Below, one piece after another: positions 4,296 to 28,335 of a DNA stretch of 64,000 nucleotides (positions within the stretch are counted from its first letter, which is position 1; each line of letters opens with the position of its first letter). The translations under genes and the position numbers were made by a program. Under the pieces are notes generated by a model, which saw nothing but the letters and a program-made list of their open reading frames with translations, made no database searches and had not been told where the DNA came from. Source of the stretch: Thelephora terrestris (Eukaryota > Basidiomycota > Agaricomycetes > Thelephorales > Thelephoraceae). Where the stretch lies: assembly GCA_015956445.1 (NCBI GenBank), contig WIUZ02000012.1:744001-808000 (forward strand), in the 5' to 3' direction.

Positions 4296-4658
4296 GGGGT
4301 TGTTGAATGTAGGGCGGAGGGTTTCATTTTCGTGCAGCTGCCGCCTGGCGGGGCTGTGCTTTTGGTAATCCGTGGATTGCGGGATGTTACATGTAACATT
4401 ATCTGACTCCAATTTGTGGTGTATCTGTGGCTAGTTAGCACCGATATCTGAATGTACATGACGCCTGTGCTTTTCTGCGAATTTGCTATTGCCGCCCACA
4501 GGGCCATACTGGTTAAACTCGAATGCCAAGACCATCAGCACAACGCCCCGATCATAACTCAGACATCTCTCTCACCCGACCACGTACCAGCATCCCCTTA
4601 GGCCGTACGCTACGCTACCTTAGGACCAACCGTCTTGTCGTCGAACAAGTTGCATACA
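4296..4658. other. Intergenic spacer
   Basis: About 360 bp between two genes in the same direction. It contains no supported ORF or repeat and is presumed 3' UTR plus promoter. Confidence 0.5.
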
Positions 4659-7137
4659 ATGGGAAAGAACTCCACTCCAGCCTCTACCGCCACGACCCAT
4701 GTGATACCACGCCCCCCCGCTGACATAGTGTACCCTAAGGGCCCATACAACTCCGAGGTGGATGCTCTCAGAGACATCGGTGGACTTCGCTACGCCTTGA
4801 ATCTCTTCCTCGCCTCTCATATGATTGAGGCGGAGAACTTCTGTACGGAGATGGACCCTTCCAAGTGAGCGCCTGTCCTCTCCCAGCCCCCCCAACGGCC
4901 TTCCACCGTCGGATAGACCCACTGAGGGAACATTTGTGGCGCATATAGGGAGCGTCTTTACTATGCGACAGGGTTTGGTCTGATCCAATGTGTCAAGGCG
5001 CTTATGTCGTACGAGGACGAGGTGATACTTTCCGCCGTTCCTCCGAGAGCGTCCGGTTAACCCATACGAAGGATCTACTCCAAGCATTATCATACGCGAA
5101 GCACGGGAATGCCATTGCGAGTCAACATCGTAAACAGAGTGCGTATTTACCGACGAGATTGATTGGTAGGGTCTTCAAGAGCCTGAATACCTCTGGGGTT
5201 GGCTGGTACAAGTCGATGACTCCGATGGAGCGCCACGCGGAGTTGGTCTATGCTGAAAGTCTGTATGAAAAGGCCATTCTGGGGATCGTCTATTCAGGTG
5301 ATTGGCTGGCATTCATCAAGGAGGCGTAAGTCTGGCTGTGCTCCCCAACGTGGATCCTGACCTCTCTAAATATCACAGGTTGAATCTCAAGACGATCATT
5401 GGGATTTATCGTGAACTTGGAGAATTTATCGAGGCGATGGACGCTGAAGCGCGAGCCCGCGGTGAACCAGAGGACCTGTCGATCGATGCTGATTTCCGTA
5501 GCGGCGTGTACCTCGGAGTTGGATGTACCCATCTCATCCTCAGCATGATGCCGGGGAAGATTCTTGCCATCGTAGAGCTCTTTGGGTACAAGGGGGACCG
5601 GATGACTGCACTAGCGTACCTGAATAAGTGCGGTGGCTGGTCACCGGATTCGAACGAACCCTCTGTTTCGCAAGGTAGTCTAATATCGAGATTCTGTGTT
5701 TGGGTTCTGATTTTAGACCCAGAACAGGAGGGTATTCGAAGGTCGATCAGTGATATGTGCTTGTTGATTTTCCACCTCGTTCTTTCGGGATTTACTTTCA
5801 ACGGGGTCGATATCAATATGGCCCAGAAAGTCCTTGACTGGAATCTCAAGAGGTTCCCAAACGGTGTGTCGCTCGTCTCAAAACCGTCCATCGCGCGTCA
5901 TTCATCTCCCATGGCAGGTGTATTTTTCCTGTTCGCCCAGGGTCGGATGAGCATGGTTCGCAGTCAGCCGGCTAAGGCGATCGAGTACTACAGGAGAGCT
6001 GCCGACGCTCAACAACAGTACAGAAACCTGCACCTTATCTCGTTCTGGGAGATAGCCACTGCCAATTTGGCGCTTTGGGACATCGAGCAGTCACTAGAAT
6101 GCTGGGTGACACTGAAAGCGGAGGCCACTGTATGTCAGACTTACTCGTGTCCAAGTCAGCTAGCTTATGGCTCCACAGTGGTCAAAAGCGACCTATGCTT
6201 TCGGCATGGCAATCTGTACATTGCACCTTCATGGAGACGAGAAGGAGGAGGAGCTTCGCAAGATGTTCGCAGAGGTTCCAAAGTTAAGGCAGAGGATTGC
6301 AGGCAAATCGATCCCGATAGAGGTGAGTTCATCACTCCGGGTGATGGTTGCCGCGCTGACAAGAATTCCCTTAGAAATTTGTCGCGAGACGAGCTGAGAA
6401 GTTTCGGGAACAAGGCGGACGCTTGTCTCTGGCTGCATTGGAATTGGCTTACCTGTTCAGTGGGATTACACACGCGCCGAGGGATGTACTGGTCAACAAG
6501 ATGCTTCCCCAAGCAAGAGCAGAACTGAGCAAATTGAAAGCTTGTCAAGATAACCCCGAAGCTTGGGGTGGGGGTATGGGCTACTGGGACGACTATTGTC
6601 TGTGTCGATTTCTAGAGGGTGTCTGTGAACGGTACCTGGCATACCCGGTGCGTGGTGGAGTTCTTCCTCTCGGGACCTTCCTTTACCTCTAAAGTAGGAT
6701 CCAGACGCTGTGATAGAGGATGGTGAAGAGAAATCTTGGTTGGATGCCGAGAAACGCGCGAAAGCAGCTTTCGATGCTGTTTTGTCGAATGGAGCGAACA
6801 TCCAAGGGGACCATCATTTGATATTCCACACTCGTACGTTCTCTCATTGACCTGTATAATCTCACGGGGATGGCTAACCGAAGCTCGTAGATTACGAGTA
6901 TGGAAGACTACTCGCTTGCCAAGGTGACGTGGATGGGGCGTTGAAACACTTCGAGTACGTGTCTGCTGGGAAATCTCCGGAGTCAAACCCAGCGGGATGG
7001 AGAGGCAAATACAGTCTAGAGGTGAGACTATTCGTCCGCTTGTACCCGGCGCCGCTGACCTTGTCCTGCTACAGAGCGCTCTGAACCTCAAGACACACGC
7101 GGCCATTGAGGCTCTTGCGCTCGGTCGTCGACTTTGA
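4659..7137 (+). CDS. IML2: IML2/TTC39 family tetratricopeptide protein
   Basis: A 644-aa protein of the Iml2/TTC39 (DUF3808) family. Yeast Iml2 is linked to clearance of protein inclusions with lipid-droplet sterol. I assign eleven exons: 4659-4864, 4949-5021, 5072-5325, 5379-5674, 5717-5863, 5918-6129, 6179-6322, 6375-6647, 6698-6833, 6891-7021 and 7075-7137; total coding length is a multiple of three. Diagnostic stretches are ALSYAKHGNAIASQHRK near the N-terminus, AIEYYRRAADAQQQYRN (a TPR-like helix pair) in the middle, and AGKSIPIEKFVARRAEKF towards the C-terminus. The 42-nt intron at 5675-5716 is in frame with the flanking exons, so a naive translation reads through it. No signal peptide; the location is probably cytosolic. 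Confidence 0.87.
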
Positions 7138-9603: not shown

Positions 9604-9902
9604 CCTCGATCCACTGTAATCGCTATCAGCCAATATCAGTCCCGTGGCGTTTGACCATGTGCGCTATCTTCCCGAGTGGCTTGACGAGTCTTGGCGATGG
9701 CCGAGCTCGATGTCGGCGTTCACCAATGCACCCAATATCCTCCGAGTTGCTTCACATTTCCCAGCATCGATTCATAGCACGATCCTCTCGATTGTTCTTG
9801 TGGATCTGTGGGGAGGGACCATCATTGATACTATGGCCTAAAGTTCCTTGCTTTCGACAACCCACGGTGGAGGAAGCCGGGGACCACATTCTCTCGCTGT
9901 TC
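9604..9902. other. Intergenic spacer at the edge of the transposon island
   Basis: About 300 bp after the dehydrogenase stop. I see no gene. The repeat family described below begins at about 9903. Confidence 0.4.
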
Positions 9903-12420
9903 TGAAGCTATTGTTAGTAAAGCTGAGCGCAATAACCCGCGGTTGGGTTGTTTCGTTGTGTCACGCCGAGCCACCCGATGGCGTTGAGACAGAGAAGTGT
10001 TTGGGTTCAAATTTCTTGATCTAAGGATACCGCTGTGTTGTTCCACGAATACCACGGGGTACTGCAGCAGGGGGCTTGGTGAAGTAGTAGGCTGCTTGCC
10101 CTACATTAGATGATGGAACGAGCCTAAATTTCCGCCTCACAGTTCGACTTGCAAGTCGTGCGGCCAGGCCTACTTAGTGAGTATATTTATCTCCCTTGCT
10201 TCAGCTTTGGCCCTCACAGCAGGCGAACGAACCCGCAGAATAGGACCACATTTCACTTTCCTTAGGTTGGTTTGACAACTTTATTGTCTCTTTGATCTTT
10301 GGTTAGGTTCTATTCGTACACCTTGCTCGGCATCTTATCCAGTGATCGGGATCGATTGCACACTGTACATGAACAAACGGTCAAGGCTGTATATCAAAGA
10401 TCAAGCGCAAAATTTAATGAGCGTGTGGTACCCCACGAACGGGGTGGAAACGACGATAATAAAAAAGAAGTAATGAGAGTGAGAATCGAGGCCAAGGATA
10501 ATGTAGGTTGACTAACACATCATATAGGCTGATCGACGCGAGGACAATAGAAACAAAAAAGGGAGAAAAAATGGAGTGATCACCGAGACCGAAACTGGAA
10601 GAACAATAATGGAGTAAGCAACAGACAAGATCTCGAGTGGTGACAAATACGCGACGCTGCGAGGAACTGATCAGAGCGCTGTGACCGAGGGTCGAAATTG
10701 AAAAAGGTCCATGCGGACGGATTCGCAGTTTAAGAAGGGGACTCTTCCCAAAAAAACGCTCATTCGCAACCCACCTTCTGTCGCTCTCTGCGCCCACACC
10801 CTCACACACCCGCACGCGCCTACGCCAAACCGAACAACACTCCGCGTTCCGTGGCAGGCCATTACATCCTGTCACCTTCTGGTGCCTGAGGAATGTTTGA
10901 CTTTTGCCAGGGCCATTAATATCGAGCACGATTTTCGGCGGGGTAAAAATCACTTACCCCAGGCTGGATCTTGTTCTCTTTATTTTGGGGCTTGGCAGGG
11001 GCCAAGCTTGTCGTAACTTCGGCGTCTTGGTTAGAGGTGTCCGTCCACTAGCAGATTGATGATAATTGTTCCCACCTCGCACGTATCCTTCGCCATCCTC
11101 TGGAGGCAGCGGTACCGTTGCCATCCGTGGCTTACGGGGGGGCTTGCGAAAGAAATCAGCAAATCATGGACACGCAAACAACAACGAACCATTGCGCTCA
11201 CCTGGCCTGGGAACTGCAACACCCCATGATCAGTAATCTATACCTCCAGGTTCTAATCAATGAACGTACGGTAAGAAGCCCGTCAAGGCCTCGCAGTGGT
11301 TCCAACGTCACTGGTAGTGGGAGGAAGGATTAGCCAAGTGTGGTGTAGTTTGGATCTAGCCGTAGGAGGGCACATACTTGATTAGCAGGGGGACGGCTTT
11401 CACAAGTGATACTACAGAGGAAACTCAGGGTAGCACTGCGGTCAAAGGAGGGTGAGAGGAGGTTTATATATCAGAGGGGGGACATCCTCTCCACCTAACA
11501 TACACGAGGTAGAAACCGGTACCATGGACGAGCAGATGTGTAGAAACGGAACACCGCCACGAGGGCCCATTGAATCTATATTCTCCAGAGACACCAACCA
11601 GTAGTAAAAGCATCACTGAATGGGGGGAGACGACGAGGGACGGGGTGAATTCCTCAGACGAGCTGGTCTTTAGCAGCGGGGCAACGTCCCCAGCATCGCC
11701 CAGTCAACCAGGATGCAAAAGGGGGGACGGACTTTGTGGACGTCCAGATGCACGCGTTTCGTGACCACGTCCGATCACCACGAAAATCGCGACATCAGCC
11801 TGCCGCAGCCGGGTGACGTTGACAATGGAAGACAAAGCAAGTAGGAAGGCACGATGAGTGGATGGATAGCCACCGCTGCGATGTATCGTGCTTGGACCCT
11901 TAAACGCTGGCATACAGCCCCGCGGACACGTTCCAGGACGGCCGGGACGAGTAGTTCACCGTCGTCAAGGGCCTTTGTTCGTTCTAGCAAAGGGGCCCTT
12001 AACCTCAGTTCCATCCAGGTTGGCTACCACACGCATGCCCGAGACGCCTCACGTCAGACTCCCCTGGTAGGTTCACTTGGTACGCAGTTCATCGGGGTTG
12101 AATGGCTTAGAGCCGATGATTTTGGTACCGACATGGGCCTTGGAATGGTCAGCCATGGAAACGACGCCACGGGTGTTGACCTGGTTTTCAGTACCGAAAG
12201 CGCGTCCAGACAACCAGACGACGCAGAGAAGGAACTGTGAGTCCCCGGTGGTAGGGCGATCAGTTGTGAGCTCGTTGGAGGCAAGGGTAGCGGTCGTTTC
12301 CGACCAAGGAGTGGTGGTACGGAAAACCCCTCGAGCGGGTGGGGTGCAGATCGGGCCGGGGGTGGGTAGGGGCGCGGTTGAAGGGAATGTACGGGAAGGT
12401 TTGAGACGTCGGAAGGCAAT
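9903..12420. repeat. Unclassified ~2.5 kb repeat, copy 1 (longest)
   Basis: A stretch with clear counterparts at 12840-25735 (interrupted copy 2) and 25985-28165 (copy 3). Shared landmarks in order: a 5' part with TTTCTTGATCTAAGGATACC (~10010), GTGATCGGGATCGATTGCAC (~10340), TCAAGGCTGTATATCAAAGA (~10380), CTGATCGACGCGAGGACAAT (~10530), a hairpin at ~10917-10985, a TATA-like GTTTATATATC at ~11461, and GTGAGCTCGTTGGAGGCAAG near 12267 close to the right end. No long ORF covers it and no terminal repeat is visible. Short minus-strand peptides such as ERTKALDDGELLVPAVLERV recur between copies, so the unit may carry or derive from a spliced minus-strand gene. I cannot assign it to a transposon class. 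Confidence 0.8.
10917..10985. repeat. Conserved hairpin inside repeat copy 1
   Basis: A nested palindrome. The inner arms GGGGTAA and TTACCCC enclose AAATCAC; the outer arms begin near ATCGAGCACG and return near CTTGTTCTC. The outer stem is weaker here than in copies 2 and 3. On the minus strand the loop region supplies GGGGTAAGTGATTTTTACCCC-like sequence, so a good splice donor lies inside the stem. Confidence 0.55.
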
Positions 12421-12825
12421 TTGAAGACAGAGAAAAACTAAAAACCCTCATGCTTTCGTTTTTTTTCCTTTCAAATACGTGATGGGAAAGCGTGTCCTGG
12501 CTGAATGTGATGTGCACCGAGGGGGCAGAAACAGAGGGAATGCGGGGGTGGAGACCTCTCATGCCAGTTTCCCTGGGCTTGAAAATGTACGTTTTATTGC
12601 CTGTGAAACTGTTCGGGGAATGCTCGTGGACGCGTACCGATTGTGTTGGCGGAGCCCGGCAAGATGAGAGGGGTGGTGACATCAACGGCGGGAAAGTCGC
12701 GTTGTGCATGTTTGGGATGGCGATAGTGCGAAGCCAAGGGGCGATTGCCAGCCCACGCCGTGATTGTGTGTCCTGAGCGCCGCCTTCAAGCGAAGGGGAC
12801 AAATCAGCACCCATAAGTGCATGAA
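12421..12825. other. Spacer between repeat copies 1 and 2
   Basis: About 400 bp that I do not find in the other copies. No supported gene. Confidence 0.4.
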
Positions 12826-12839
12826 GATAAAACTGTTGT

Positions 12840-12897
12840 GGGTGCACATCTTATCCAGCCTCAGTGATCGGGATCGATTGCACACTGTGAATAAAGT
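12840..12897. repeat. Repeat copy 2, left segment
   Basis: This short piece (TCAGTGATCGGGATCGATTG, then CACACTGTGAATAAAGT) matches copy 1 at about 10332-10375. It ends exactly at the left terminal repeat of the Harbinger element, with AGT as the last three bases. The sequence continues after the element at 17225. Copy 2 lacks the first ~420 bp seen in copies 1 and 3. Confidence 0.75.
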
Positions 12898-12915
12898 GAG
12901 TGACTGTCCGCAGGA
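12898..12915 (+). repeat. Harbinger left terminal inverted repeat
   Basis: GAGTGACTGTCCGCAGGA, identical over 18 bases to the inverted right end. AGT precedes it. Confidence 0.88.
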
Positions 12916-13783
12916 TTTACGCTAGGTACACACAAACCCAGATAAATATCAAACCCTTATAAGGAAACTGTCAGGACCCCGACCGTTGTGTCGGGGCGTT
13001 GGTATCGTATCTAAACCCCTCGTCTGGGACCTCAGAATGTATGCCGAGTACTATCTCAAATCAATAGATTTCCACCAACGGGTCTCGGGCCGTGTTATCG
13101 TGGGAGTCAAACAAGTTCCGCATCGCCTTTCCTCCCAACCCCCACTTCCCTTCCCTCTCGTTGGTCGTCTGACCATCCCGCCTCAGCACTAATACATTTA
13201 TGGCATGGGGTGAAACTTCTTCTGGGTTAGGGTTGTGTCGGACGGCCGCCGTTGTGCTCAAACCTAATTTTACCCGAACCGGGCACCACAGGTATCGTGA
13301 CCGCCCGCCATACACACGTTTTTACGAGGCTCATCTCCATTAGGTTTTGCCTTTCTTACATGCGAGACGATGTGCGGGTCCCTTGCTCCTCCTCTCTGTT
13401 ATCACTAAAGAGAAGGAAAGAATCACACACTCGTTAGGGTCCATGGAACCAGGTGTGAATAGTTGAAATGGTAAGCCCCTCATATCAGTCACACGCGAGA
13501 CATGTGGGTCGTGGAGTGCGGTGGACTTATGTCTGACTGTATGTTCCCTTCCTGATGAAAAGGTTTATTTCCTCCGGTTCATTCTTCAGAGTCAGCTTTT
13601 TGTTCCAGCTGTTGCATCACAACGTCATGGGTGAACTCCTGACCACGGAGCTCGATGGGCTGCAAGGTATATAAGACACAGTTTTGTAGGTAGCAACTCA
13701 TCCTTCATACCCAATTTGCCTCTCGTCGCATTCCTCTCCACTCGTTTTCCTGACTTTAACCCACTCGCTCCTTTACTATTCCA
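12916..13783. other. Harbinger 5' non-coding region
   Basis: About 870 bp between the left terminal repeat and the Myb-like gene. No ORF there resembles a known protein; it presumably holds the promoter and subterminal binding sites. Confidence 0.5.
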
Positions 13784-15374
13784 ATGGCTACTCTTGCATC
13801 TGGCCGGCAGTTCTACGTGGATCATTTCACTGCTCAAACCTTTTATCGGGAGGCAGAGAACGGGGACTGGATACCGCTGCAGCCATCTGACTATCACGCT
13901 CCAAGACCCGATGCTCACAACGTAAGAAAATTATTCATGTCATGCACTCCTCTGATCCAGTCTGCTTTTTGCAGGCCTTAACACGTGCACCGAATGACCC
14001 AGGGTTATCTTCGGTCAACCCCGCTCTGAGTGTCCCTTCCCATCTATGCATGGACACTGCTACCCAACCCCCACCCGCAACTCAAGGATATTCCGACGCC
14101 TCCCAGTTCTCCTATGAGTACCGCCAACCCATCGCCCAACCTCTGCCCTCAGTTCACAACCGTTCTTTGCCTGCTCCTATGCCCCAGAATCCTGCGCAGC
14201 CCGAACGAAACGCGAGGCGTACCCGGCGCTCAACGCGAGCGCATGATCCTGTTCGTGGTCAGAGGACCGCCCGTCAGCGTGAGGGTGGGAGGGGTCGAAC
14301 TCGCGGAGCCCCTAACTACAAGCCTCGGGAGGTTAAAGTCCTTCTTGATCTCGTCGAGGAAGAGCTCCCAATTGCCTCCAAGGGGTGGAGGGTTATCGGT
14401 TCCCAGTTCCGTGACTGGGCAGTCGTCACGGAGTACCCGGCAAGGACTAATCGCTCGTTGGAGCTAAAGTACAAACAGGTCAGTTTCTCTCCCCTTAAAG
14501 ACACAGCAGAGTCACTCAAGGCCCTCCCTCATAGCTCGTGAGAACAAGAAAACCGACAGGAGATGCAGAATGTCCGCCAGAGATCCTCCGTGCACATGAG
14601 ATTGATCACAAGATTCAATCAAAGGTTGCATGCCGGGACCTCGAGGATGGTGAGATTGCTGATTTCGAGGACGGTAACTTCCTCGATAACTCGGATGACA
14701 ACATGTCCGACTCTTATGACCCCCCTGAAGATAGCGACGAAGGCCCAGCTCCTAACAGCAACCCCGCTCCTCGAGTTCGTACGACACGTGTCAAGTCCCC
14801 ACTTCTAAGCCAAGAATCAACACGCCAATCCTCCTCCAAAGGCACCAACGTTCTCGAAAAAATTTCCCAGAGCTTTGATCCCGAGGTCCAATCCCGTCGC
14901 GAGGCTGACCGTGCTTCCTCAATGTTCCAATCCCATCAGCTCATCCTTCTTCAGTCCCAGATCCGCGATCTCAACAGCACGGTTCTTTCTCTTCGCGGCC
15001 AGCTTGACGATGCAGAGCGTCGCTGCGTCAACGCTGATCGCCGTGCTGACCGGCTTCAAAACCAAATTGATATCACTTCTGCTGTCACTCGTGCCCGCCT
15101 GCACCGATCCACCGCTCGTGTTCCCAGGCTTGCCTCACCCATCACGATCTCTTCTTCCCCTGAGTCCACTCCTGAATATAATCGCCGATACGAGGCCACC
15201 TTCCGTGATGGCAGTCGTTGCTCATGGTTTGGGAACATCAACCGCCTTGATCCCGATGATAATGTTGTTGAGGTGACCCGGGTTCCATGGAGCCCGCCCC
15301 CACATTCCCCAGCTCAATCCCCACCTCAGTCCCCATCTCTGAGCGCCCTTTATCACACTGACTGTGAGGTGTAG
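13784..15374 (+). CDS. Harbinger Myb/SANT-like DNA-binding partner protein
   Basis: A 493-aa protein in three exons (13784-13921, 13975-14478, 14535-15374). Around residues 145-220 lies a Myb/trihelix-like domain: YKPREVKVLLDLVEEELP, GWRVIGSQF, then NRSLELKYKQL and PTGDAECPPEILRAHEID. This resembles the DUF6818-type domain found beside Harbinger nucleases in fungi and oomycetes. A basic RRTRRST patch precedes it and may serve as a nuclear signal. An acidic stretch (EDGEIADFEDGNFLDNSDD), a predicted coiled coil (LQSQIRDLNSTVLSLRGQLDDA) and a Pro/Ser tail follow. In characterised Harbinger systems the Myb-like partner helps bring the nuclease to the nucleus and the element ends; that role here is inferred from context. 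Confidence 0.8.
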
Positions 15375-15684
15375 GCCATGGCATTAGTTCATAGAGAGCA
15401 AGTCGTGTTCTCCTTTCTTTCTCCGTTCATTTGTCTGTTCTTCCCTTTCGGTCAAAGGTTCCTTTCCAACTTCTGTCACTCCTTAATTCTCTTTTTTCAG
15501 CAACAACGCCGTGTTTACCTAAGCAATCATTTAATCCATTTTCGCCGCCCAACTCATCTACTCTCCTTTACTTTCTTGGTTCAACACCGGTGCCCTATCA
15601 CCTTAGCCACTTATCCCGCCCAGCTCATCGTCACTCGTTAGCCCTTTACTTCCACAAAGATATCATATTAGTCATAGATATGCT
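15375..15684. other. Spacer between the convergent Harbinger genes
   Basis: About 310 T-rich bases separating the two stop codons, likely carrying both polyadenylation regions. No gene seen. Confidence 0.5.
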
Positions 15685-17047
15685 TTAATACCATTCTTCT
15701 TGAACATGAAAAGTTCTGACACGGTCGTGTTTCCGTTGGTCAGAGAATAGAATGTCCTCAAATCCCTCCCAGATCCTCGCGCCATCACCCTCGCGCCACA
15801 TAGGAACATAGACGTTCTTGATATGATTGATTCCAACCAACCGCGTGCGAAGGTTGTGAAGGCGAAAACAGGTCTCGATGACGTCGGCCCTCCTTTCCAC
15901 ATGTTCGATATCCAAGGGAATCCGAAGCCGCCCAAAACTTCCCTGTAGTTCTCGCATTCCCCACTCTGCAGTCTGGCGGTAGGAGAGTATTGACCGTGAG
16001 AGCTCTAGTACGTGCTTCCGTTGAGCACGATCTCGAGGTAGGTTGACACGTGCCTTGAGCGGGACAATTATTTTCCCGGTAATCCGATCGTGACCTGCGG
16101 GAAATGCGGCGTCAGCGACGATGCAGTATCCATTGGGCGTTTCATGTTCTAGCTTCTCATATATCCCCTCAGCAACACGTGAATCGTGCCAGCTGCCGGG
16201 ACAATTTGTGCGACAGCCAATGATCTCTCCTGTCTGAATTGTCAGCGTCCACCAAATGAGCATAATCAATCAAACACAGACCCTTTGAGCTAAAAACAAT
16301 TACTGAGCTGATGAAATGGCTGTGAAGCCATCCATTATACGTCGCATTTTCCATCTCAATGTCATTTGAGACCTGACACGGCAGGTTCAGGCCATCAATT
16401 GAACCGAAGACGCCTTGAAGAAGCGGGTGGCGCATGGATACATAGCCACTGAGTTCAAGGAACTCATCGCCTTTAGGCCAGGTGATGGCTGCTTGAGGCA
16501 TCTGCCTCAGGACTTCAAGGAGGATTGATAAGGCAAAGCGAAGGTACCGGGAGACAGTAGAGGGGACGAGGGCAAATATTTGCTGGAGGCTGACTTGTCG
16601 CATAGTCGAGGATAACCAATGGAGGACCAGACCGAGTCCTCCTGCAGCGTCCAACGATCTCCTTCCAACTCGTGGCTGAACTGTTGTGTGCATGTCAGGG
16701 CGAGGAATTGGTTGAGTAGACCAGAGGCGTCGAAAACCGGACTCAAGAATGATATGGAAGGTGGAGGTGTCAATGCCCATGGTGGTGATAAATGCCCGGT
16801 CGTTGTGGTTCTCGTAGAGATACGCCCAAGGTGTTCCGATTCGAGGGTTGGGGGGTAAGCTCATCCGTCCGAGGTACTGCCGGCGGGGGCGTCGGTTTGC
16901 TATCGACCACGCATGATCCTCATTGGATCCTACAACAAGGACCGCAACAAGAAGACGTGCCTGGTCGAGGAACTCGCTTTCCTCGTCAATTTCGAGCTGA
17001 TGCTGGGAGGTAATGGTGTGGAGGAGGAGGTCGAGGTCGTCGTCCAT
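15685..17047 (-). CDS. PIF/Harbinger transposase (DDE_Tnp_4 nuclease)
   Basis: A 436-aa nuclease that cuts and inserts the element. Two exons on the minus strand, 17047-16282 and 16229-15685, joined by a 52-nt intron after SSKG; the join restores SSKGEIIGCRTNCPGSWHDS. The three catalytic acids can be placed: Asp in GVFGSIDGLNL, Asp in PGSWHDSRV, and Glu in TAEWGMRELQGSFGRL. The N-terminal half has the helix-r rich region typical of the family (ISTFHIILE-like STFHIILESGFRRLW). The start ATG at 17047 (MDDDLDLLL) is preferred over an in-frame upstream codon at 17086. No break is visible, so the protein looks functional. Confidence 0.88.
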
Positions 17048-17206
17048 GGTTGAGAGTTGCTGACGTGGCTGGGAGGCTCGCGCCAATTCACGGCCTGAAT
17101 ACTTTATTTGTTGAAATCCCTACGGACAGCGGCAGAATATTTCCTGGTAGATCTCGGCTACTGGCACCCTTCTACGACGGATATTTTTAATCCTACTCTA
17201 ACCAAT

Positions 17207-17224
17207 TCCTGCGGACAGTCACTC
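17207..17224 (-). repeat. Harbinger right terminal inverted repeat
   Basis: TCCTGCGGACAGTCACTC, the exact inverse of the left end, followed by AGT. Confidence 0.88.
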
Positions 17225-17358
17225 AGTGGTCAAGGCTGTATGTCAAAGATCAAGCGCAAAAATTAGTTAATGAACGTGTGGTACCCTACGAGCGGGGTGG
17301 AAACGACGATAATGAAATGAGAGTGAGAATCGAGGCCGAGAATGGTGTAGGTTGACTA
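17225..17358. repeat. Repeat copy 2, middle segment
   Basis: 134 bp between the two transposons. It matches copy 1 from about 10376 to 10512 (GGTCAAGGCTGTATGTCAAA, then CGGGGTGGAAACGACGATAA and GAGAGTGAGAATCGAGGCC). It ends in TA at the left end of the Plavaka element and resumes at 23808. Confidence 0.85.
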
Positions 17359-17374
17359 CATCAGCAAAGGTGGC
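17359..17374 (+). repeat. Plavaka left terminal inverted repeat
   Basis: CATCAGCAAAGGTGGC, preceded by TA; matches the inverted right end at 15 of 16 bases. Confidence 0.8.
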
Positions 17375-17535
17375 AGCTGGTTATTGTGACTTAATTTGTT
17401 TATTTACACTTGTCTGGATTGTGCGATCATTATTTTTTTTACCATCGCGGCACATTTCACACGAGAAAATAATGAGTTTAGTAAGCAGGAAAATAATATG
17501 CGCCATAAGAGCTGATGTTACAAGGTACACGGGAA

Positions 17536-20500
17536 CTAGGATAACATTGTGAAGGCATGGTAATCAATGTACTTGTTAAGATAGAAAGCCTTGAAAACAT
17601 CGAGTGTGTTGGTGAAATTGATTTCCCTTGGGATGGGAGTGTCGTTCTTGAAAACGGGCAGAAGATGTGCGGCGCGGATGATGGAGTCAATGTGCACAAC
17701 GGACATAATCCTGTACCCGTCCCTGTCGAAGTCCGGTTCGAGGATCCACAAGCCGTTGTCTGGATCCGGATCGGTGAATGCCTTGCAGAACTCGTGGACG
17801 AGCGCACATTCATAAAGCTCCTCCTCGAGCGTGAACGAAAAAAATAGATGGACCCTTGCAACCTCGAGACCTCTTCCTCCTGCTATGTCTGACCCAGTGT
17901 GGAGCAGGACGCAATCGCGGCGGGGTGCCACAATACCACTGGTCTTCCACTTCGGGGTAGATCGGATTGTCTCGCGGTATAGTCCTTCGACACCGGAGGG
18001 GTTGCTGGGGGCGTGGAGGATAGCTTTTGCAGAATGGAAGATGGAGATATCTTCAATGAGGTCGACGTCTGGGCAGGAAGAGATGGAAGGTGTTCCAGTG
18101 GAATTTGGATTCTGCTGGTGGAAGAGGAAGACCCGAATGAGATCCTGGAGGTTTTCTTGTTCGATATGTCTTCCGAGCTCCCAGATTGATGTCAGGGGGT
18201 ATCCGCGTGCTGTACCAACATTCAGAAACAGTTGGGTATATTGATAATGGAAGATACTCACCCCGCTTTTGCGCAAGAGCAACATCGCTCAGCACGGGTG
18301 GTCCGTCTGCTGGATTCATTGCATGTGTGGGTAGCTCGTCCACCGGACCTGTCATATCCTCGTCCTCATCAGCGTCGAGGTCCTGGCCATCCTCACTGCT
18401 GTATTCTGTATCATCTTCGGAACCCTCTACATCGCTGTTGTCGCTGCTGATAGCCTCGAGGATGTCGTAGAGCTTCTTGAGTGCCTCACCAAGGCAGGTG
18501 CCATCAAGCATGCCACGCGATGCAAAATCAGTTCGTGCGGCTGTGAGCTTGTCGTTTCGAGTATTGATGATAAGCATTTGACCGAGTGCATCATAGCGGT
18601 TGGATTGGCGCCACGGTTTTTTGACGGCCGTGATGTGCTTCGACTCAGTGATCGATGAGGAAAGCCCATTCAGTGCCCCAAATTTCTCAATATGGTGATG
18701 ATAGTGGGTGAGGGCGTGTTGGCGGGGGAGTGAGAACCCGGTGGGGCGAACACCTTTCTCCTGAAAGATCTTTCGGTAGTGATGGAACCGGTTGAGGGCG
18801 TTGTCGAGAGCAATGATTGAATCCTCAGTGAGGGTGTCCTGCCGTGCAATGTAGCAGAAATCTAAGAATGCGATGAAAGTCTTGATGATGTCAATGGGAA
18901 CAATTCCTTCCAGTGCCGTGGTAAAGACCTGGGTGAGGTTAGTGTACGAGCCTGGTTGAGCCCCAAAGCGCTTACCTTCATGAAGGCCTTGGAGTCATTT
19001 CCGGTCCATTGCTGGAAGTTTCGCCCCTGTTTAAACCGACGGAGACCAGGGAATAGCGGTACTAGGGCAACCCTGGGGAGCACGAGGTGAGAAACGATCA
19101 AAAAATGAATGAAATAGCATACCTCCGATCAATCTCATCAAGAAGTTGTGAACCCTTTGAGGCGCCGTGCTCGAGTTTAAGAAATTCTTCGACCCAGGTA
19201 ACGAGGTGATCTTTGAATGTCCCCTTGATGGCTTGGTGGAGAAGGTCCGGAGTAAGAAGTTCGTAAATATCGGCTCGTGGGAAGTTTGTCGTGAATGGCT
19301 AGAATCAACCATCAGTTTTCGATCAAAAACAGATGGTGGCAGCGGCGGGAAACCTACCAGAAAGTCGGGGATAATGCCGTGGTCGAACCAGAGAGTGTCG
19401 TTGTCCTCCGTCGAGAGAAGCGTGAGCAGTTGCTCCCGCGTGCGGAGTTCTGCAGCCGGGTTATCGAGATGTTTGTGATGGGCGTTACACCTAGAAGGGC
19501 GCTGATCAGCATGCAAGTGCCTCCCAAGTATCTTGACTGCTGTGGAGTGTACAGACGTAAAGCACCACCCATAAACTATCCCCGCAGCAACTGATTGCTC
19601 GGGGTAGTCAGCGATGTGTGGGCCGAGTCCATATATTGCTCGGCGGAAGTAATGATCGGAACATCGGACGAGGTCCCAGGTCTTCATGTAAGGCTTGATA
19701 GAGTTGTTGATCGTAGTTAGGCACCCATGGAAGAGACGTCGGCGGAAATCCCGGAATAGCTCGTCCTTCGTGTCATCCCGGAATAGCTCGTCCTTCGTGT
19801 CATCCCGGGTACCTGTGGATGTTAAGTCAGACTGAGCATTCGTGAACAATTGTGACTACCTTTTGGGATTGGGAGGAAACCGATTAGAACGAGCGCGTCC
19901 TTGTGAGCGCGTCGAAGACGGTTGTGCACGTTGCCAACCGAGAGGTAAACCGGGTGGTATGACTGCTGACCTGTCGCAACAGAGACAGTCGTCTTGTCGG
20001 TGCCGAGCATGACGGGTACAAACATACACCCATGTGTCGCAGGGTCTCTCGAAATAACATCCTGTCGTAAGATGTTAGTAATGAATGACGTGAAGGCTGA
20101 CCAACATACACATTGGTCCCAGGCCCAGTTACCGCTCATGAAGTCGTGATACTGTCGCTTCTCGTCTTCGAAGTCACGATGTGGGGTGTGGTCAATACCC
20201 GAGGCGAACTCAGGGTTTGCAAGTATGTGGTGGATGACCTGCCTGGGGTCGCGGTACCAAAGGTGGTAGTCGGTCTTCATCCATTCCGGTACCGGACCAC
20301 TCTCGGGGCGCAGCCACTGGTACTGGGCGGTGTAGGATTTCCACTGGACATTTCCTAATTCAATAGCATCGATCTTGGCATGGAGGTCTTTGTGATCAGT
20401 GATGGGTGGTACGTCGCCATGGGGGACAAGCGTCGCTTTCCAGATGTCAAGAAGTTGATCAATTAGGTTTTGAGAAAGATGGGCCTTGAGGTACAGAATT

Positions 20501-20818
20501 TCGGCGAGCTCAAATGAGGCTCGCGATGGGAAGGGGGTCCAGTCGTCCATTGGCTTGGATGGTGGTGGATCTGGCGGTGTCCCTGGCGGAAGAAAATTTC
20601 CGTGGTGATCACAGGGCATCGCTGCGAGATCTGTGAGCACTAACATAGCAATTAATTGGGAACAAGTTCCTACCGTTGAGTCGCGGGTGAAAAACACGAT
20701 AGATCCCTTGGATGGGGTTGGCAGTGGGTTGGCGATGGGTGGAGGAATGTTGGGTCAGGCCGCGAGAGGATTTGCAAACCTTCCCACATTTGCTGCAGAC
20801 GAAGAAAGACCGGTCCAT
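17536..20818 (-). CDS. Plavaka transposase
   Basis: A large multi-exon transposase on the minus strand. The N-terminus carries a C2H2 zinc finger (CSKCGKVCKSSRGLTQHSSTH). The core includes DDWTPFPSRASFELAEIL and YHDFMSGNWAWDQC, then DVISRDPATHGCMFVPVMLG, where Asp residues typical of the family lie, and SVGNVHNRLRRAHKDALVLI. It continues through HKHLDNPAAELRTREQL and RRFKQGRNFQQWTGNDSKA, an acidic linker, and the usual C-terminal block ending AHLLPVFKNDTPIP and FKAFYLNKYIDYHAFTML. Introns interrupt the gene around 20620-20680, 20060-20110, 19813-19865, 19480-19560, 19300-19360, 19080-19140, 18925-18975 and 18210-18265; exact joins were not all fixed. All major blocks are open, so the gene looks whole. 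A 27-bp tandem duplication lies at 19751-19804. Confidence 0.85.
19751..19804 (-). repeat. 27-bp in-frame tandem duplication in the transposase
   Basis: Two adjacent identical 27-bp units (19751-19777 and 19778-19804) encode the nine residues DDTKDELFR twice. The duplication keeps frame and the flanking family sequence continues on both sides. Confidence 0.85.
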
Positions 20819-21649
20819 AGGCGCTATCCAGAGCAGCCTGCGATGGGTGTCGGGGAAGGCGAGGAAGGTTTGTTTGATGTCGACAAGACTGGGGAGGCGG
20901 CCGTGACGTGGCTGTGGTCAAGACTTGAGAACCACGGTCATCGGTCCCCGGTCACCGGTCACAAGCGGTGGTGGGCCACATCTTCAGGTGATCCCACGTT
21001 GTGACACAAAGGTCACAACAGTTCTTCGAAGTCGACGAGGTCGACGGTCAACTTCCACTCGCTTTTACCCCCACTGTCACCTTCCTCTTTTTTTTCCATC
21101 TTTTTCGTCCACTTGGCTCCTCTGATCATCTTTCACTACGTCTCTTGACTGATTAAATATGAGCCATCAGGCTTTATTTAGCAATATTGTCAATTTCCTC
21201 GACGCCGATTGTGTCGGATCCCCCAAGAGGTCTTCGATTCCTGCGATGCTAACCGTGTCGGTTTCCCCGATGCCAATCACATGCACGATTGGAATGCAAA
21301 TTGTCACCCTCACCTTGTCCTCGTGGTGAGTATTTGTTGTCGCCCAGCCCATCCAAAGACGTTTTGATCATTCGAATCCCAGGGCAAGTGACAAGACTCC
21401 TCCGAAACGGCCCATGTGTGCATTCTTTCTCAGCACATGCCTCGCTTTTGAGGAAGAGAAGTGGCTTGTGTACGTTTTGACTAAGCTCCGATCGCTCTGC
21501 GTCCGAACGCTTGCCTTCAAATTTGAATTTGGCCATTGCTATAAGACACAACTGGTAAGCTACTGCGTCTCACCCATCCCATCCATCTATCCGCTTTTAT
21601 TATTTTTACTTACCACTACACCACTCGTTTCTAGTTTCTCTCTCACCCT
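20819..21649. other. Divergent promoter region inside the Plavaka element
   Basis: About 830 bp between the transposase start (minus) and the companion gene start (plus). It is G-rich near the transposase, T-rich from 21060 to 21120 and pyrimidine-rich just before 21650. No supported ORF. It probably drives both genes. Confidence 0.5.
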
Positions 21650-23499
21650 ATGCCAGTTGGAACTCGCGCCGCAAACAAGAATGCACGCCCAGCAGCGCCC
21701 GTGATGACTGAGCGAGCAAAAGTCAAAGCTGGCATCAAACCACCTCGTAAGAAGACCCAGAAGAAGGATGACCAAATCCGCGAGCTCCAAGCACGTCTGG
21801 CTGCTTTCGAGCATGCCGATGAAGCCCCTGCTGTTTCGAAGGAGCCTTTGGTCAGTCAGCCGACTGCTCCTCACTCGAGCAAATGACTAACAGCCCTCAG
21901 TTCATGAGAGGCAGTAGCCCTGACGACACCGACATGTTGGCTGCTGACTCTGAGGCTGTGACCGAAGTCGACTCAGATGAGTTCGTCATTGTCAACGGGA
22001 AAAGGATCCTCTCGAACGGCTATGACCCTCGGTACGTGACATTAATCCAATACCAATTAAGCTCTGAATGACTCGTTCATACAGGGCGCTGAAGCGCAAC
22101 AAAGCATACAGCTCGTTCAATGAGGTTCGGCCAACTCTCCGCAACAAACCATCCGGGCTCATCAACAATTGGCCTCAAGTTTTAACCAGGACGAATCCAG
22201 CTACACATCGCCAGTCTTCGCCTCGGATACCATCAACCCCGTCATCTGTAACTCGAGTCCTTCCTGCAACCCCGTCGCCGCTAACATCCTCTTGGCAACA
22301 ATCCCCATCTTCAATCATATCAAATGTGGATCCCTTCGATTCTATCACGCCGACACAGAACGCCGACACTCCTTTTCTTGGCCACCCCTCTTTTCCATCC
22401 CACCAAGCACATCAACAGTCTTCGAATGTCATCCCACAACAGTTCTTCCAGGCAATGCCCCCCCCCACCGCGGTAAGATCGCCCCCCCCCCCCCCCCGCC
22501 GACCACGAGTAGCACTAATGTTCGATGCAACCAGCCTTGCTCATTCCCTAGGAAGTACAAGGATGAAGAAGGCAACTTCCAGACTCCTGGACTGAAGGAT
22601 TTGCCTTTCGACATACATAATAATTTCCGCGATAAGTTCATCCGTCATATCATGGAACTTGTGTGCGCCGGGGTGACACCCTGGACCAACCCTCTTGTCC
22701 CCGCCTACCAGCATGAGTTCAACCTCATCTACCCAGGGTACCACTATCGCCTACATGCCAAAGACGCAGTGGTCCTTCCGACCAACCGGGAGCTTGGAGT
22801 GCTCCGAAACCAAATCGGCGCCAAGGGTCTCCAAGCGGTCATTGAGTTCCTCCCCACCCAATACACTAATCGCATGCTTGACTCTAAGGTGCAGAGAGCT
22901 GCTTACGTCAGTACCCTTCTCAACTCGAAGCAGCGACCATTTATCTGGGAGTATTTCCGACCCGGAACAATCGAGGTTCCTGCCGGTCAAGAGAAGTACT
23001 ATGATGAGGTCTGTTTTTACCCTGCTTACATGTCAGGTGTATTAAAGTATTGTCTTCCAGAAACGTCGAGGCCCGTTCCAATCGATTCCCGTCCTCCGCG
23101 CCTTCGCAGTATACTTCTCATCACATGGCATCCGGACGCGACCCGAAGGTTCCGAACGTCCGGTTGGCGCGCTTGCACTTGCAGCAGCAGCAGTAAGTTC
23201 AAACCCACCTTCTATTGTACGCCCATTTCAATTCTGCCCAGGTCGAACGCGGGTACCTCGCACACCGTAGTGGTGACTATGTCCCAACTTCAAAGGAATT
23301 CTCCACCACAAACTGCCTTCCACAGACAGAAATGTATCTCGAAAAGATCTATGGCCTCACTGATGACAACTGGAAGGGAATATTCGATGCACTCCACCGG
23401 CTCCAAGAGACCTCTGCGCGCGAGGACAAAATCCGAGCAGGGGTGGTCCCGGAGCAGCACGAACCTTTACTTCCTGAAGACCCTCCCAGCCCCGCCTAG
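21650..23499 (+). CDS. Plavaka-borne companion protein, unknown function
   Basis: A gene inside the transposon ends, divergent from the transposase. Supported exons: 21650-21850 (a basic Lys/Ala-rich start, then KKDDQIRELQARLAAFEHAD, probably coiled coil), 21901-22031 (acidic; DSDEFVIVNGKRILSNGYDP), 22085 to about 22470 (Ser/Thr/Pro-rich linker), about 22512-23005 (a folded-looking domain with PGLKDLPFDIHNNFRDKF, LVCAGVTPWTNPLVPAYQHE, ELGVLRNQIGAKGLQAVIEF, PFIWEYFRPGTIEVPAGQEK), and 23060-23499 in at least two exons (SQYTSHHMASGRDPKVPNVR; EMYLEKIYGLTDDNWKGIFD). I recognise no catalytic motif. A helper for end binding or for countering host silencing would fit the context but is a guess. The exon count between 22085 and 23240 is provisional. 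Confidence 0.65.
22482..22497 (+). repeat. Sixteen-base poly-C tract
   Basis: An uninterrupted run of C in what is most likely an intron of the companion gene (donor GTAAGATC at 22473). A nine-base C run lies just upstream at 22458. Runs of this length are prone to slippage and to sequencing error. Confidence 0.85.
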
Positions 23500-23791
23500 T
23501 TGTCGCGCTCAACACTGAGCTGGATACCCTGTCGAGTCTCCCGTACCTACAAAATAGTTACTTCATCACTATCTGTCAGGTTTCTTAAATCCCTATGCCT
23601 CAGACTCGGATAACCATGCCTTAGATTAGTCCTATTTTAATTCGTGCTTTTAATCATATTATTTTCACAACGTAAAACGCCCGACGAAATAATGAGTCGA
23701 AGTTATACAAAATCGGGGGCCTACGTTATAAAGTCAATTATTTTCGATTATGCGCGGGATAACCGCGGATAACCGCAAAAAGAACCCCGAT
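23500..23791. other. Plavaka right subterminal non-coding region
   Basis: About 290 bp, AT-rich from 23600, with tandem GGATAACCGC units before the terminal repeat. No ORF. Confidence 0.5.
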
Positions 23792-23807
23792 GCCACGTTT
23801 GCTGATG
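23792..23807 (-). repeat. Plavaka right terminal inverted repeat
   Basis: GCCACGTTTGCTGATG, inverse of the left end with one mismatch, followed by TA. Confidence 0.8.
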
Positions 23808-25735
23808 TATCACATCATAGGCTGATCGACGCGAGGACAATAGAAACAAAAAAGTCGAGCGGATGAAGAAAAAAATGGAGTGGCCACCAAGACCGAAACT
23901 GGATGAACAATAATGAACTAAGCAGCATCTGAACAACAGATAAGATCCCGAGCAGTGACCAATACGCGACGCTGCTAGGAACTGATCAAAGCGTTGTGAC
24001 CGGGGGTCGCAATTGAAAACAAAAGGTGTAAAAGGTCCATGTGATTGGATTCGCACTATAAGAAGGGATTTCAACAACTTTTGTCGCTCTCCGCACGCAC
24101 ATCCTCACACGCACCTGCACACGCACCTACCCCAAACCAGCACCCCATGTTCAACAGGGCCATCACGCCTTGTCACCCTCTGGTGATTGACCGATGTTTG
24201 ACTTTTGCCAGGGCCTTTAATATAGAGCACGACCTTCGGCGGGGTAAAAATCACTTACCCCAGGCTGGATCTCGTTCTCTATATAAAAGGGCTTGGCAGA
24301 AGCCAAGGTAGTCAAAACTTCGGCATTTTGGTTAGAAGTGTCCCGAATCCACTGAGCAGATTGATTATGATTGTTCCCACCTCGAATGTCGCCTTCATTG
24401 TCCACGGGAGGCAGCGGGATTGTCGCCATCCGTGGCGCACAGGGGGTCTTGCGAAAGAAATCAATAAATCATACACGGCCAAGCAGCAACAATTCATCGC
24501 ATTCACCTCAAAATTCCGGGCCGGAAAATTCTTAGGAAAGAGATCAGCAAATCATACACGCACAAAAAACAAGCCATTGCACTTACCTGGCCTGGAAACT
24601 GCAACACCCCGTAATCAGTTTTACACTTTCAGGTTCGACTCAGTGAACATACGGTGAGGAGCCCTCCAAGCCCTTGCAACGGTTCTTGGGTCACTGACAA
24701 CGGGAGGAAGGATTAGCCAATTATAAGGCGATTTGGATCTAGCCGCAAGGGGGCATACTTGGTTGGTCCGGTTCTGGAAAAGTTGTTCGGAAGTGATACT
24801 GCAGAGAGGGAGCTCAGGGTAGCACAGCGATCAAAAGGATGGTGGGAGGGGGTTTATATGTCGGAAGGAGCACATCCTTCCCACCCGCAATGTACACGAG
24901 GCATTGCAACCAAATCCTCATTTAACCTGTCGTAGAAACTGGTACTGCGGATGAGCAAGATGTGTAAAAACGGAACACCGCCATGAGGACTCACTGAGCC
25001 TATGTTCTTCGGTCACTGAATGGGGGGAGACGACGAGGGACGGGGTGATCCTCTCGGATGAGCTGGTTTGTAGTAGCGGGGCAACGTCCCCAACATTGCC
25101 CAGTCAACCGGGATGCGAAAGGGGGGGACAGACGTGGTGTGGACGTCTAGATGCAGGCGTTTCGTGACCACTTCCGATCACCACGAGAATCGCGACACAG
25201 GCCGCAGCCAGGTGACTTTTACAGGAAATCGTGCCTGGGTATTCAAACGCCGGTATACAGCCCGGCGGACACGTTCCAGGACGGCCGAGACGAGTCGTCC
25301 ACCGTCACCAAGGGCCTTTGTTCGTTCTAGAATAGTCTCGGCTCCATTCAGTCTGACCACCACATGCATGCCTGAGATGCCTCCCGGCGGACTCCCCTAG
25401 TAGGTCCACTTGGTACGCTCTTCAACAGGGTCAAATGGCTTGGAGCCGATGATTTTGGTACCGACATAGGCCTTGGAATGGTCAATGATGGAAATGACGC
25501 CACAGGTGTTGATCTGGGTTTCAGTACCGAAAGCGCGTGCAGACAACCTAACGACGCAGAGAAGGAAATGTGGGTCCCGGTAGTAGGGCGATCAATTGTG
25601 AGCTCGTTGGAGGCAAGAGAGTCATAGCGGTCGTTTCCGACCAAGGAGTGGTGGTACGGTAAACCCCTCGACTGGGTGGGGTACAGATCGGCCCGGGTGG
25701 GTAGACTCAGGCGCGGTTGAAGGGAATGTACGGGA
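23808..25735. repeat. Repeat copy 2, right segment
   Basis: Resumes the repeat from TCACATCATAGGCTGATCGA through the hairpin (24219-24288), a TATA-like GTTTATATGTC (~24854) and GTGAGCTCGTTGGAGGCAAG (~25598), and ends near GGGAATGTACGGGAAGATT. The match to copy 1 (10515-12405) is high throughout, with scattered substitutions and short indels. Minus-strand peptides shared with copy 1 include ERTKALGDGGRLVSAVLERV and HSKAYVGTKIIGSKPF. Confidence 0.85.
24219..24288. repeat. Conserved hairpin inside repeat copy 2
   Basis: The inner arms GGGGTAA/TTACCCC are identical to copies 1 and 3. The outer arms TATAGAGCACGA and TCGTTCTCTATA pair well with one or two mismatches. Confidence 0.65.
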
Positions 25736-25984
25736 AGATTTGCACTACCTCGGTCGCAGAGGGTGTTGAGCGTGTCCCGATGGGTGCAGGAGGGTCAGAC
25801 GGATCTGATTTTGGACAACGCGGGTAAACGGTAGGGCACGACTTCGGACACGTTCGGCGGAAACAACGCAGGAGACGCATCCACCTACGGGGCATACCGT
25901 GGTCATCGCCAGGTGAGCCTACCACTTTGGAATGCCTCCTGAGTAAGAACGTTGAATGTACAGAACATTCGTACTTCTAACTGT

Positions 25985-28165
25985 TTTGTAGCCATAGTCG
26001 GTAAAGCTGGGTGCCGTAAGTCGTAATTGGATCGTTTCATTGTACCATACCGAGTGATTCGACGAGGTTGAGAAGTGTTCGCGTTTAAGTTTCTTGATCT
26101 AAGGATACCGTAAACGCTATGTTGCGGAGTATTTGGGGCCTGTTCACAAGCACCATGCGCTATTGCAGCCGGAGGTTTAGAGACCTGTTTTAAATTACTA
26201 CTCTGCCTTTCCTATATCGAATAATGAAGCAAGCTTGACTTACTGCCTTGTGATTAAGGTCTAAGGACTCGTGCGGTTTGGTATCGGCGAGGTCCGGACC
26301 TCCCTTGCTTCAGCTTTGGCCCTCACAGCGCCCGAAAGTATCCTGCGAACCCGCAAAATCGGCTGCGTATCACATTCCACTTCTCAAAAACCGGGTCGAC
26401 AACCTTATTGTCTTCTTTGATCTTTGGTTGTGGGTGCTTTGCGTCCACCTTGTTCGGCAGCTTCTCCGCTGGTGATCGGAATTAATTTCATGCTACGTGG
26501 GCGTAAACGTTAAGGTTTTGAATTTCCAAGTTCAAGCGTAGAAGAGGTGTAATAAAAATGTTGCCAGAAAAAATGTTGCCAAAGATACCCCATGGGTAGG
26601 TGGAAACAGAGATAGGAAAAAGAAAAGATGAGAGTGAGGCCCAGGGTGATGTAGGTCGACTATCACACCATTAGGCCGATCGACGTGTGGACAATAAGGA
26701 CAAAAAATGAAGAGAAAAAATGGAATGGTCGTCAAGACCGAAATCAGAAGAACAATAAACAGGCGCATCCCTTGACCGACATGTAAGACCTCGAGCGGTG
26801 ACAAATACACAACGCTGTGGTCAAGGGTTGGAATTGGAATAAAAGAGGTCCATGCTGACATCTCGAATCCGCCAGTATAAGAGCTGGGAGTATCTTCATA
26901 AGAAACCCTCGTTCGTAACCCATCGTCCACCTTCGCCTACACCCGGGCCGCACACCTCCGCCAAACCCAAACTCCACGCACCACGGTCAATCACATCCCC
27001 TCAATAATCGTTTGGCTTTTGCCAAGGCCATTAATATAGAGCACGAGTTTCGGCGGGGTAAAAATCACTTACCCCAGGTTGGGCCTCGTACTCTATATAT
27101 TCGGGCTTGGTGGGAGCCAAGCTTATGAAGATTTTGACCCCTTGGTCAGAAGCGTTCCTCCACTGAGCAGATCGATCGTGATTGTCCCCACCTTGCGTAT
27201 CATCATCGCCCATAGGGGGCAAGGGAACCGTCCCAAGCCGTGGCGTTGGGGGGGTCTTGCAAAAAAAATAATAATTAACAATCATACACAGCCAAACAGC
27301 AACAAATCATTGCACCCACCTTGCCTGGGAATTGTAGGAGCTGCAACAACCGTGATCAATAGCTTACGCTTCTAGGTTCGACTCCAGAAACTTACGACGA
27401 GAAGTCCCCCCGTAGGGTCCCGAAGCGGTTCTAGGGCCATGGTACCCAGCGCTGGAGGAAGGATCAGCCAGATGTCAGGTAGTTTGGGCTTAGCTGCAAG
27501 GGAAGGCGTACTTAATGGATGTAAACAGTTGTATATGGGCTGCAGCGAGTAGGAGAATTTAGGGAACAGTACGGAGTTCAAAGGAAGGTGGGAGGGGGTC
27601 TATTTATTAGAGGGGGCACATCCTTCCCACCTACAGCTGTACACGAGGCGTTGCCCACAGAATCCTCATCCAACCTTTCGTAGAACCGGTATGAAGTGGA
27701 CGAGCGGATGTGTAGAAACGGAGCACTGCCGCAAGGACTCACTGCATCTATATTTTCCAGCGACTAAGCAGTAGAGAAAAGTGTCGATGAATGGGAGGAT
27801 GGACGTGCAAAGGGGTGGGTCTTACAAGATCGGACGAGCTGGTCCGTGGCAGCGGGGCAACTTCCCCAACTAGTCAACCAGGATGCGAATGGAGAGGACG
27901 CACTCTATGGGAACGTCCAGATACACCTGTCTCGTGACCACACGAATCGCGACAGATTGGGCGCAGCCACTTGATTTTGACAGGAAGGGTGATGGGGAGG
28001 CAACGACAATAGAAAGGCGCGAGCCTCGAGGAATAGAGGAATAGCTACCACTGCAATTTATCATGCTTGGGCCCTTAATGAACGCTGGGATACAGCCCCG
28101 AGAACACGTTGCAGGACGGCTGGGACGGGTGTTCACCGTCGCCAAGGGCCTTGGTCGTCCTAGCA
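25985..28165. repeat. Repeat copy 3 (right end truncated, more diverged)
   Basis: Begins with the same 5' part as copy 1 (TTTCTTGATCTAAGGATACC at ~26090, CTCCCTTGCTTCAGCTTTGG at ~26301, CTTTGATCTTTGGTTG at ~26434), contains the hairpin at 27032-27098, a TATA-like element near 27600 and ACAGCCCCGAGAACACGTTG near 28091, and stops matching at about 28165. Several internal stretches are shorter than in copy 1. It is the most diverged copy. Confidence 0.75.
27032..27098. repeat. Conserved hairpin inside repeat copy 3
   Basis: The outer arms TATAGAGCACGAG and CTCGTACTCTATA pair over 13 positions with a single mismatch. The inner GGGGTAA/TTACCCC stem is unchanged. This is the best-formed example in the window. 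Confidence 0.7.
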
Positions 28166-28335
28166 GAGGAAGCCTTTGTCCATGAAGGGAGTCGTGTTGA
28201 AAGTGGGCTCAGCAAGTCGTAAATGAAGGGCAGGACGGGGATCATGGAAAGGTTCACGATTGATTCAGATAGTAAATCACGATTAGAGGCCGGTCAAAGC
28301 GAAGGCAGTGAGCCTGGCGGTCCAGGGGGACCGCC

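Follow-up and report, generated by a model that had tools for sequence, protein, structure and literature searches.

The 64,000-nt stretch of the Thelephora terrestris genome analyzed here, hereafter the window (assembly GCA_015956445.1, WIUZ02000012.1, positions 744,001-808,000; labeled contig C4 below), carries three direct copies of a repeat unit of approximately 2.5 kb, the middle one of which is interrupted by two apparently whole DNA transposons of different superfamilies, a Harbinger-type element and a Plavaka element. The genome totals 40.6 Mb in 60 contigs. Copies 1 and 3, identified by self-BLAST on the forward strand, are uninterrupted and lie at 9897-12403 and 25981-28169. Copy 2, in the same orientation, spans approximately 12838-25742 including the insertions and consists of three pieces: a first piece at 12838-12897, placed by alignment, with an approximate left edge and a 26-bp exact match to copy 1 at 10340; a middle piece of 131 bp at 17228-17358, 84% identical to 10379-10514; and a last piece at 23808-25742, delimited by self-BLAST. 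Pairwise identity among the three copies is 66-84% over the BLAST pieces.

The Harbinger-type element occupies 12898-17224 (4327 bp) and is defined by its ends, terminal inverted repeats (TIRs), flanks, and relatives among miniature inverted-repeat transposable elements (MITEs), which indicate an ANT target. Its TIRs (GAGTGACTGTCCGCAGGA) are perfect (18/18 bp), and AGT stands on both sides, at 12895-12897, the end of the first piece of copy 2, and at 17225-17227 on the same strand. On the reverse strand, the element encodes a transposase of 436 aa (15685-17047; one predicted intron, 16281-16230) that matches the DDE_Tnp_4 profile PF13359 with E 4e-25 over the complete domain (1-158 of 158), a profile typical of the PIF/Harbinger superfamily. 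Likely D, D, and E positions in this protein were picked by eye. A phmmer search of the transposase against the PDB gave no matches at E up to 1. The second gene, on the forward strand, encodes 493 aa in predicted exons 13784-13921, 13975-14478, and 14535-15374 (overall 13784-15374), and matches DUF6818 with E 2e-8.

The Plavaka element, of the PlavakaB type, occupies 17359-23807 (6449 bp). Its termini, CATCAGCAAA...TTTGCTGATG, form TIRs of 17 bp with one mismatch (16/17), flanked on both sides by TA, at 17357-17358 (the end of the middle piece of copy 2) and 23808-23809 (the start of the last piece). A transposase of 978 aa with seven predicted introns is encoded on the reverse strand at 17536-20818; it matches PF18759 in two stretches (E 4e-110), has at its N terminus a C2H2 finger scoring below the curated cut-off, and includes at 19748-19808 a 27-bp unit repeated 2.3 times in frame. 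The second gene (21650-23499, forward strand; 527 aa, five predicted introns) has a DUF6532 match that is weak and falls short of the curated cut-off. Splice models for both elements were built with a simple dynamic programme and then corrected manually. All four gene models are free of frameshifts, and none needs stop read-through. No TET/JBP domain was found in the two Plavaka gene models at E up to 0.1, a trait shared with many Plavaka families. Two inverted repeats, each with a flanking duplication around a matching transposase, are not a product of chance.

Copies 1 and 3 allow the state of copy 2 before insertion to be compared directly. Separating the two elements are AGT and the 131-bp middle piece of copy 2, which aligns in register with copies 1 and 3. 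In self-BLAST, copy 1 positions 10379-10514 correspond to 17228-17358 and positions 10513-11203 to 23808-24508, an overlap of exactly the 2-bp TA, and in copy 3 the Plavaka site reads GACTATCACA, with one TA. At the Harbinger-type site, copy 1 (CATGAACAAACGGTCAAGG) and copy 3 (GGCGTAAACGTTAAGG) show an uninterrupted join at the right point, with AAACG in both versus AAAGT in copy 2. Thus, the paralogous empty site is exact for Plavaka and gives position only for the Harbinger-type element, whose AGT duplication is supported by MITEs with the same ends rather than by the paralogous copies. An initial annotation of the window had described the two transposons within copy 2 with the coordinates and the AGT and TA flanks given above, and the boundaries, TIRs, and matching transposases bear it out on these points. 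It had also described uninterrupted sites with a single flanking copy for both elements, which is correct for Plavaka, whereas for the Harbinger-type element the join is present without AGT; the string quoted as that empty site in copies 1 and 3, GTGAATAAAGT, is present just once in the window, within copy 2. Nor do the three copies align end to end, as its own check called for: approximately the first 400 bp of copy 1 are absent from copy 2, and approximately 400 bp of its 3′ part are absent from copy 3, where the BLAST match ends at approximately 11993 of 12403.

The repeat looks like a local triplication rather than a dispersed repeat, because a genome search with most of the last piece of copy 2 (23820-25740) listed nine matches, seven of which are at this locus, and the other two are short (approximately 105 bp) and on contig C23; here and below, genome-wide sequence searches score the best candidates only. 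In tblastx between the copies, matches fell in all six frames with many breaks, and no coding frame was prominent in the part of the output inspected. Pfam gave no match for the long ORF (open reading frame) at 10417-10953 in copy 1 (E up to 0.01) or for that at 12263-12850 at the right edge of copy 1 (E up to 0.001). The block of approximately 105 bp that recurs twice on C23 (L008, L009) at 72-77% identity is present in all three copies (10894-10995, 24195-24296, and 27010-27113); the copy 2 version contains an inverted pair, GGGGTAA/TTACCCC, at 24241 and, at 24280, a stretch that is TATA-like.

End sequences of the Harbinger-type element are common in the genome, with 67 matches at up to one mismatch versus one in a reversed control. 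We assembled loci for 30 of these 67 matches, 19 loci from a search with the element, and the element itself, and counted MITEs with both ends, excluding loci without a second end. These loci contain 20 distinct MITEs that carry the element's ends on both sides; in 15 of them the 3-bp flanks are identical, and all of these are ANT. At C12:1059625-1059999 (L067, L068), two such MITEs stand head to tail, the second apparently without the first TIR bases.

According to Han et al. 2015 (PMC4482050), the target of PIF/Harbinger in the narrow sense is TWA, whereas the Pangu group of the PHIS (PIF/Harbinger-ISL2EU-Spy) transposons, Harbinger2 in Repbase, makes a 3-bp ANT target duplication. Pangu elements are described there as averaging 3.5 kb, with two genes, a DDE transposase, and TIRs of 11 to 40 bp usually starting AG or GG, and as known in basidiomycetes. 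The element in the window has a transposase of the DDE_Tnp_4 type and is thus a member of the PIF/Harbinger superfamily. It resembles the narrow PIF/Harbinger group in its DDE transposase, its second gene, and its short MITE relatives in the genome, but its target is AGT, and ANT in its relatives. Because the target is ANT and not TWA, its sequence features would favor the Pangu/Harbinger2 group, with which it shares, as far as that source describes it, the ANT duplication, two genes, a DDE transposase, a TIR length within 11 to 40 bp, and a basidiomycete host. It differs from Pangu as described in its length (4.3 kb), its DUF6818 second gene, and TIRs that start GA (GG in one MITE). Since the TIRs start GA and the placement draws on target site, gene content, and TIRs, "Pangu-like" is the fair label. 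The earlier label "Harbinger" therefore holds at the level of the superfamily, by PF13359, and not in the narrow sense.

PlavakaB, in the CMCT clade, is described in PMC12730594 as having CATCA..TGATG termini and a 2- or 3-bp target duplication. The group is further defined by C(2)C and H(3-4)H motifs between the second D and the E, and by tree position. The Plavaka element in the window agrees with this description in its PF18759 transposase, its termini, and its 2-bp duplication (copies elsewhere have 2 or 3 bp), and differs in a second gene with a weak DUF6532 match only and in giving no TET/JBP match. Both elements are thus of known kinds, and neither insertion is unusual for its family. 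Elsewhere in the genome, a partial Plavaka at C5:734632-738517 (L031, L032) is 98% identical to that of the window over element bases 3293-6449. An insert of approximately 0.7 kb breaks this copy; its ends are CACTG..CAGTG, AGA is apparently duplicated (3 bp) around it, and it looks CACTA-type. Copies on C8, C58, and C60 belong to a different subfamily from that of the window and are 98.4-99.4% alike over the aligned pieces; their flanks are TAG/TAT, CCC/CCC (a duplication of CC or CCC), and TA/TA, respectively. Short elements of approximately 150 bp with Plavaka ends, found on C8, C12, C23, C45, and C56 as eight opposed end pairs with starts 133 bp apart, are likely Plavaka MITEs. A 4578-bp segment that includes Plavaka is identical between C45 (L038) and C12 (L039), as would follow from a recent duplication or an assembly duplicate.

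Together, these data make it very probable that copy 2 of an older local triplication received two independent cut-and-paste insertions. The Harbinger-type element would have been inserted by its own DDE transposase, probably with the second protein, at an ANT site that was copied to AGT...AGT, and Plavaka by its own transposase at a TA that was copied to TA...TA. The work would have been done by each element's own proteins, and both elements are presumably active now or were recently. The triplication probably predates the insertions; the repeat copies, at 66-84%, are far more diverged than the Plavaka copies on C8, C58, and C60. Because neither element lies inside the other, their arrangement does not reveal which was inserted first. 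Several observations weigh against this account. AGT is found in neither copy 1 nor copy 3 at the Harbinger-type site, and 5 of the 20 MITEs lack identical flanks. Among the matches listed, a second full-length copy of the Harbinger-type element is absent, and its best long relatives reach 72-73% identity and are broken into pieces. The best PF18759 stretch covers 3-243 of 325, without the end of the profile; the splice sites are predicted only, and several donors are possible for the third Plavaka intron. The flanks of the C8 Plavaka differ at one base.

The two elements are just 131 bp apart (134 bp with AGT), as might be expected had they arrived as one composite unit. The intervening DNA, however, belongs to copy 2 and keeps the register of copies 1 and 3, and each element has its own duplication, making a joint arrival extremely improbable. 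The initial annotation had proposed that a neutral repeat served as a landing pad, and an attraction of transposons to the repeat itself would account for two insertions in one copy, with none seen in the other two. Against this, the repeat at length is found at this locus only (among the matches listed), leaving no replicate, and for two insertions placed at random in approximately 2.4 kb, a spacing of 131 bp or less has a chance of about 1 in 10; we consider a landing pad very unlikely and the proposal as stated unsupported.

Plavaka copies elsewhere bear on whether the closeness seen here reflects a preference. On C8, a Plavaka copy interrupts a Pangu-type MITE; counting the Plavaka duplication as 3 bp, with one base changed, gives this MITE exactly its usual length of 187 bp. 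On C60, another interrupts a Pangu-type element of 492 bp flanked by ATT/ATT, Plavaka itself being flanked by TA/TA; this case was first seen by eye in 41 bases and then confirmed with a wider Pangu library, whereas an earlier BLAST of element sequences against the loci (E 1e-4) detected the C8 case and missed this one. The wider library also matched four other Plavaka loci (L034, L044, L046, L047), where the matches are to other shared repeats outside the Pangu-matching parts and were not counted. With TIR markers alone (48 Pangu-type and 45 Plavaka loci), ends lie within 200 bp of each other at C4 and C8, giving 3 pairs versus 0.02 expected under uniform placement, with the two ends of the C8 MITE counted separately. 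We then extended the markers with a 12-base Pangu subterminal word (88 sites; 5 in a reversed control) and, for Plavaka, with another end pattern (16 matches versus 1 in the control). With these, of 55 Plavaka loci, 3 have a Pangu marker at no more than 200 bp and 4 at no more than 500 bp, the fourth, on C2, at 398 bp. Expected means were 0.09 and 0.19, respectively, under local shifts of 2-50 kb, and 0.08 and 0.17 under uniform rotation. The probability of at least three loci within 200 bp is approximately 5e-5, and that of at least two, which approximates omission of the window, is 0.002-0.003. The window is thus one of three proximity cases, on three contigs.

These counts, and the C8 and C60 copies that lie inside Pangu-type elements, would fit a preference of Plavaka for such elements, or for permissive spots that they mark, over chance. 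The numbers are small, though, the end patterns capture only part of each family, the extent of some contigs was set to the highest coordinate seen, and the 12-base word was picked after its sighting at C60, the TIR markers alone giving C4 and C8. The C58 Plavaka has no Pangu match in the left flank examined, and its right flank was seen for 18 bases; that left flank shows internal repeats by eye. No Pangu marker stands within 200 bp of any of the short Plavaka elements with both ends, the window Plavaka sits outside the Pangu-type element, and Pangu-type MITEs close to each other at a few places fit generally permissive spots as well. We therefore regard a nonchance association as doubtful, and slightly more doubtful still the specific form in which PlavakaB in this genome prefers to insert inside Pangu-type (Harbinger2) elements or no more than a few hundred bases away, using their ends as target. 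No report of Plavaka in Pangu elements was found in the part of the literature on Plavaka, Harbinger/Pangu, and nested insertion that was covered.

Outside the triplicated repeat, the window contains two further local duplications, 43368-45016/46623-48241 (71% identical) and 58155-60091/60553-62475 (75% identical), the latter with an ORF resembling a major facilitator superfamily transporter, at a match just under the cut-off. A 15-bp tandem repeat of 9.3 copies (90% matches) lies at 48727-48866. An Rfam scan of the window at gathering scores gave no matches.

The locus provides a compact, internally controlled example in which two DNA transposon superfamilies, with uninterrupted genes, stand beside their empty sites, and its fungal MITE relatives yield an ANT target. 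At other loci of the genome, the recurring feature seems to be Plavaka in or beside Pangu-type elements, not the repeat, and this recurring closeness seems to merit a planned test. If the association held true in other fungi, it would offer a case in which the homing of one DNA transposon on another could be tested.

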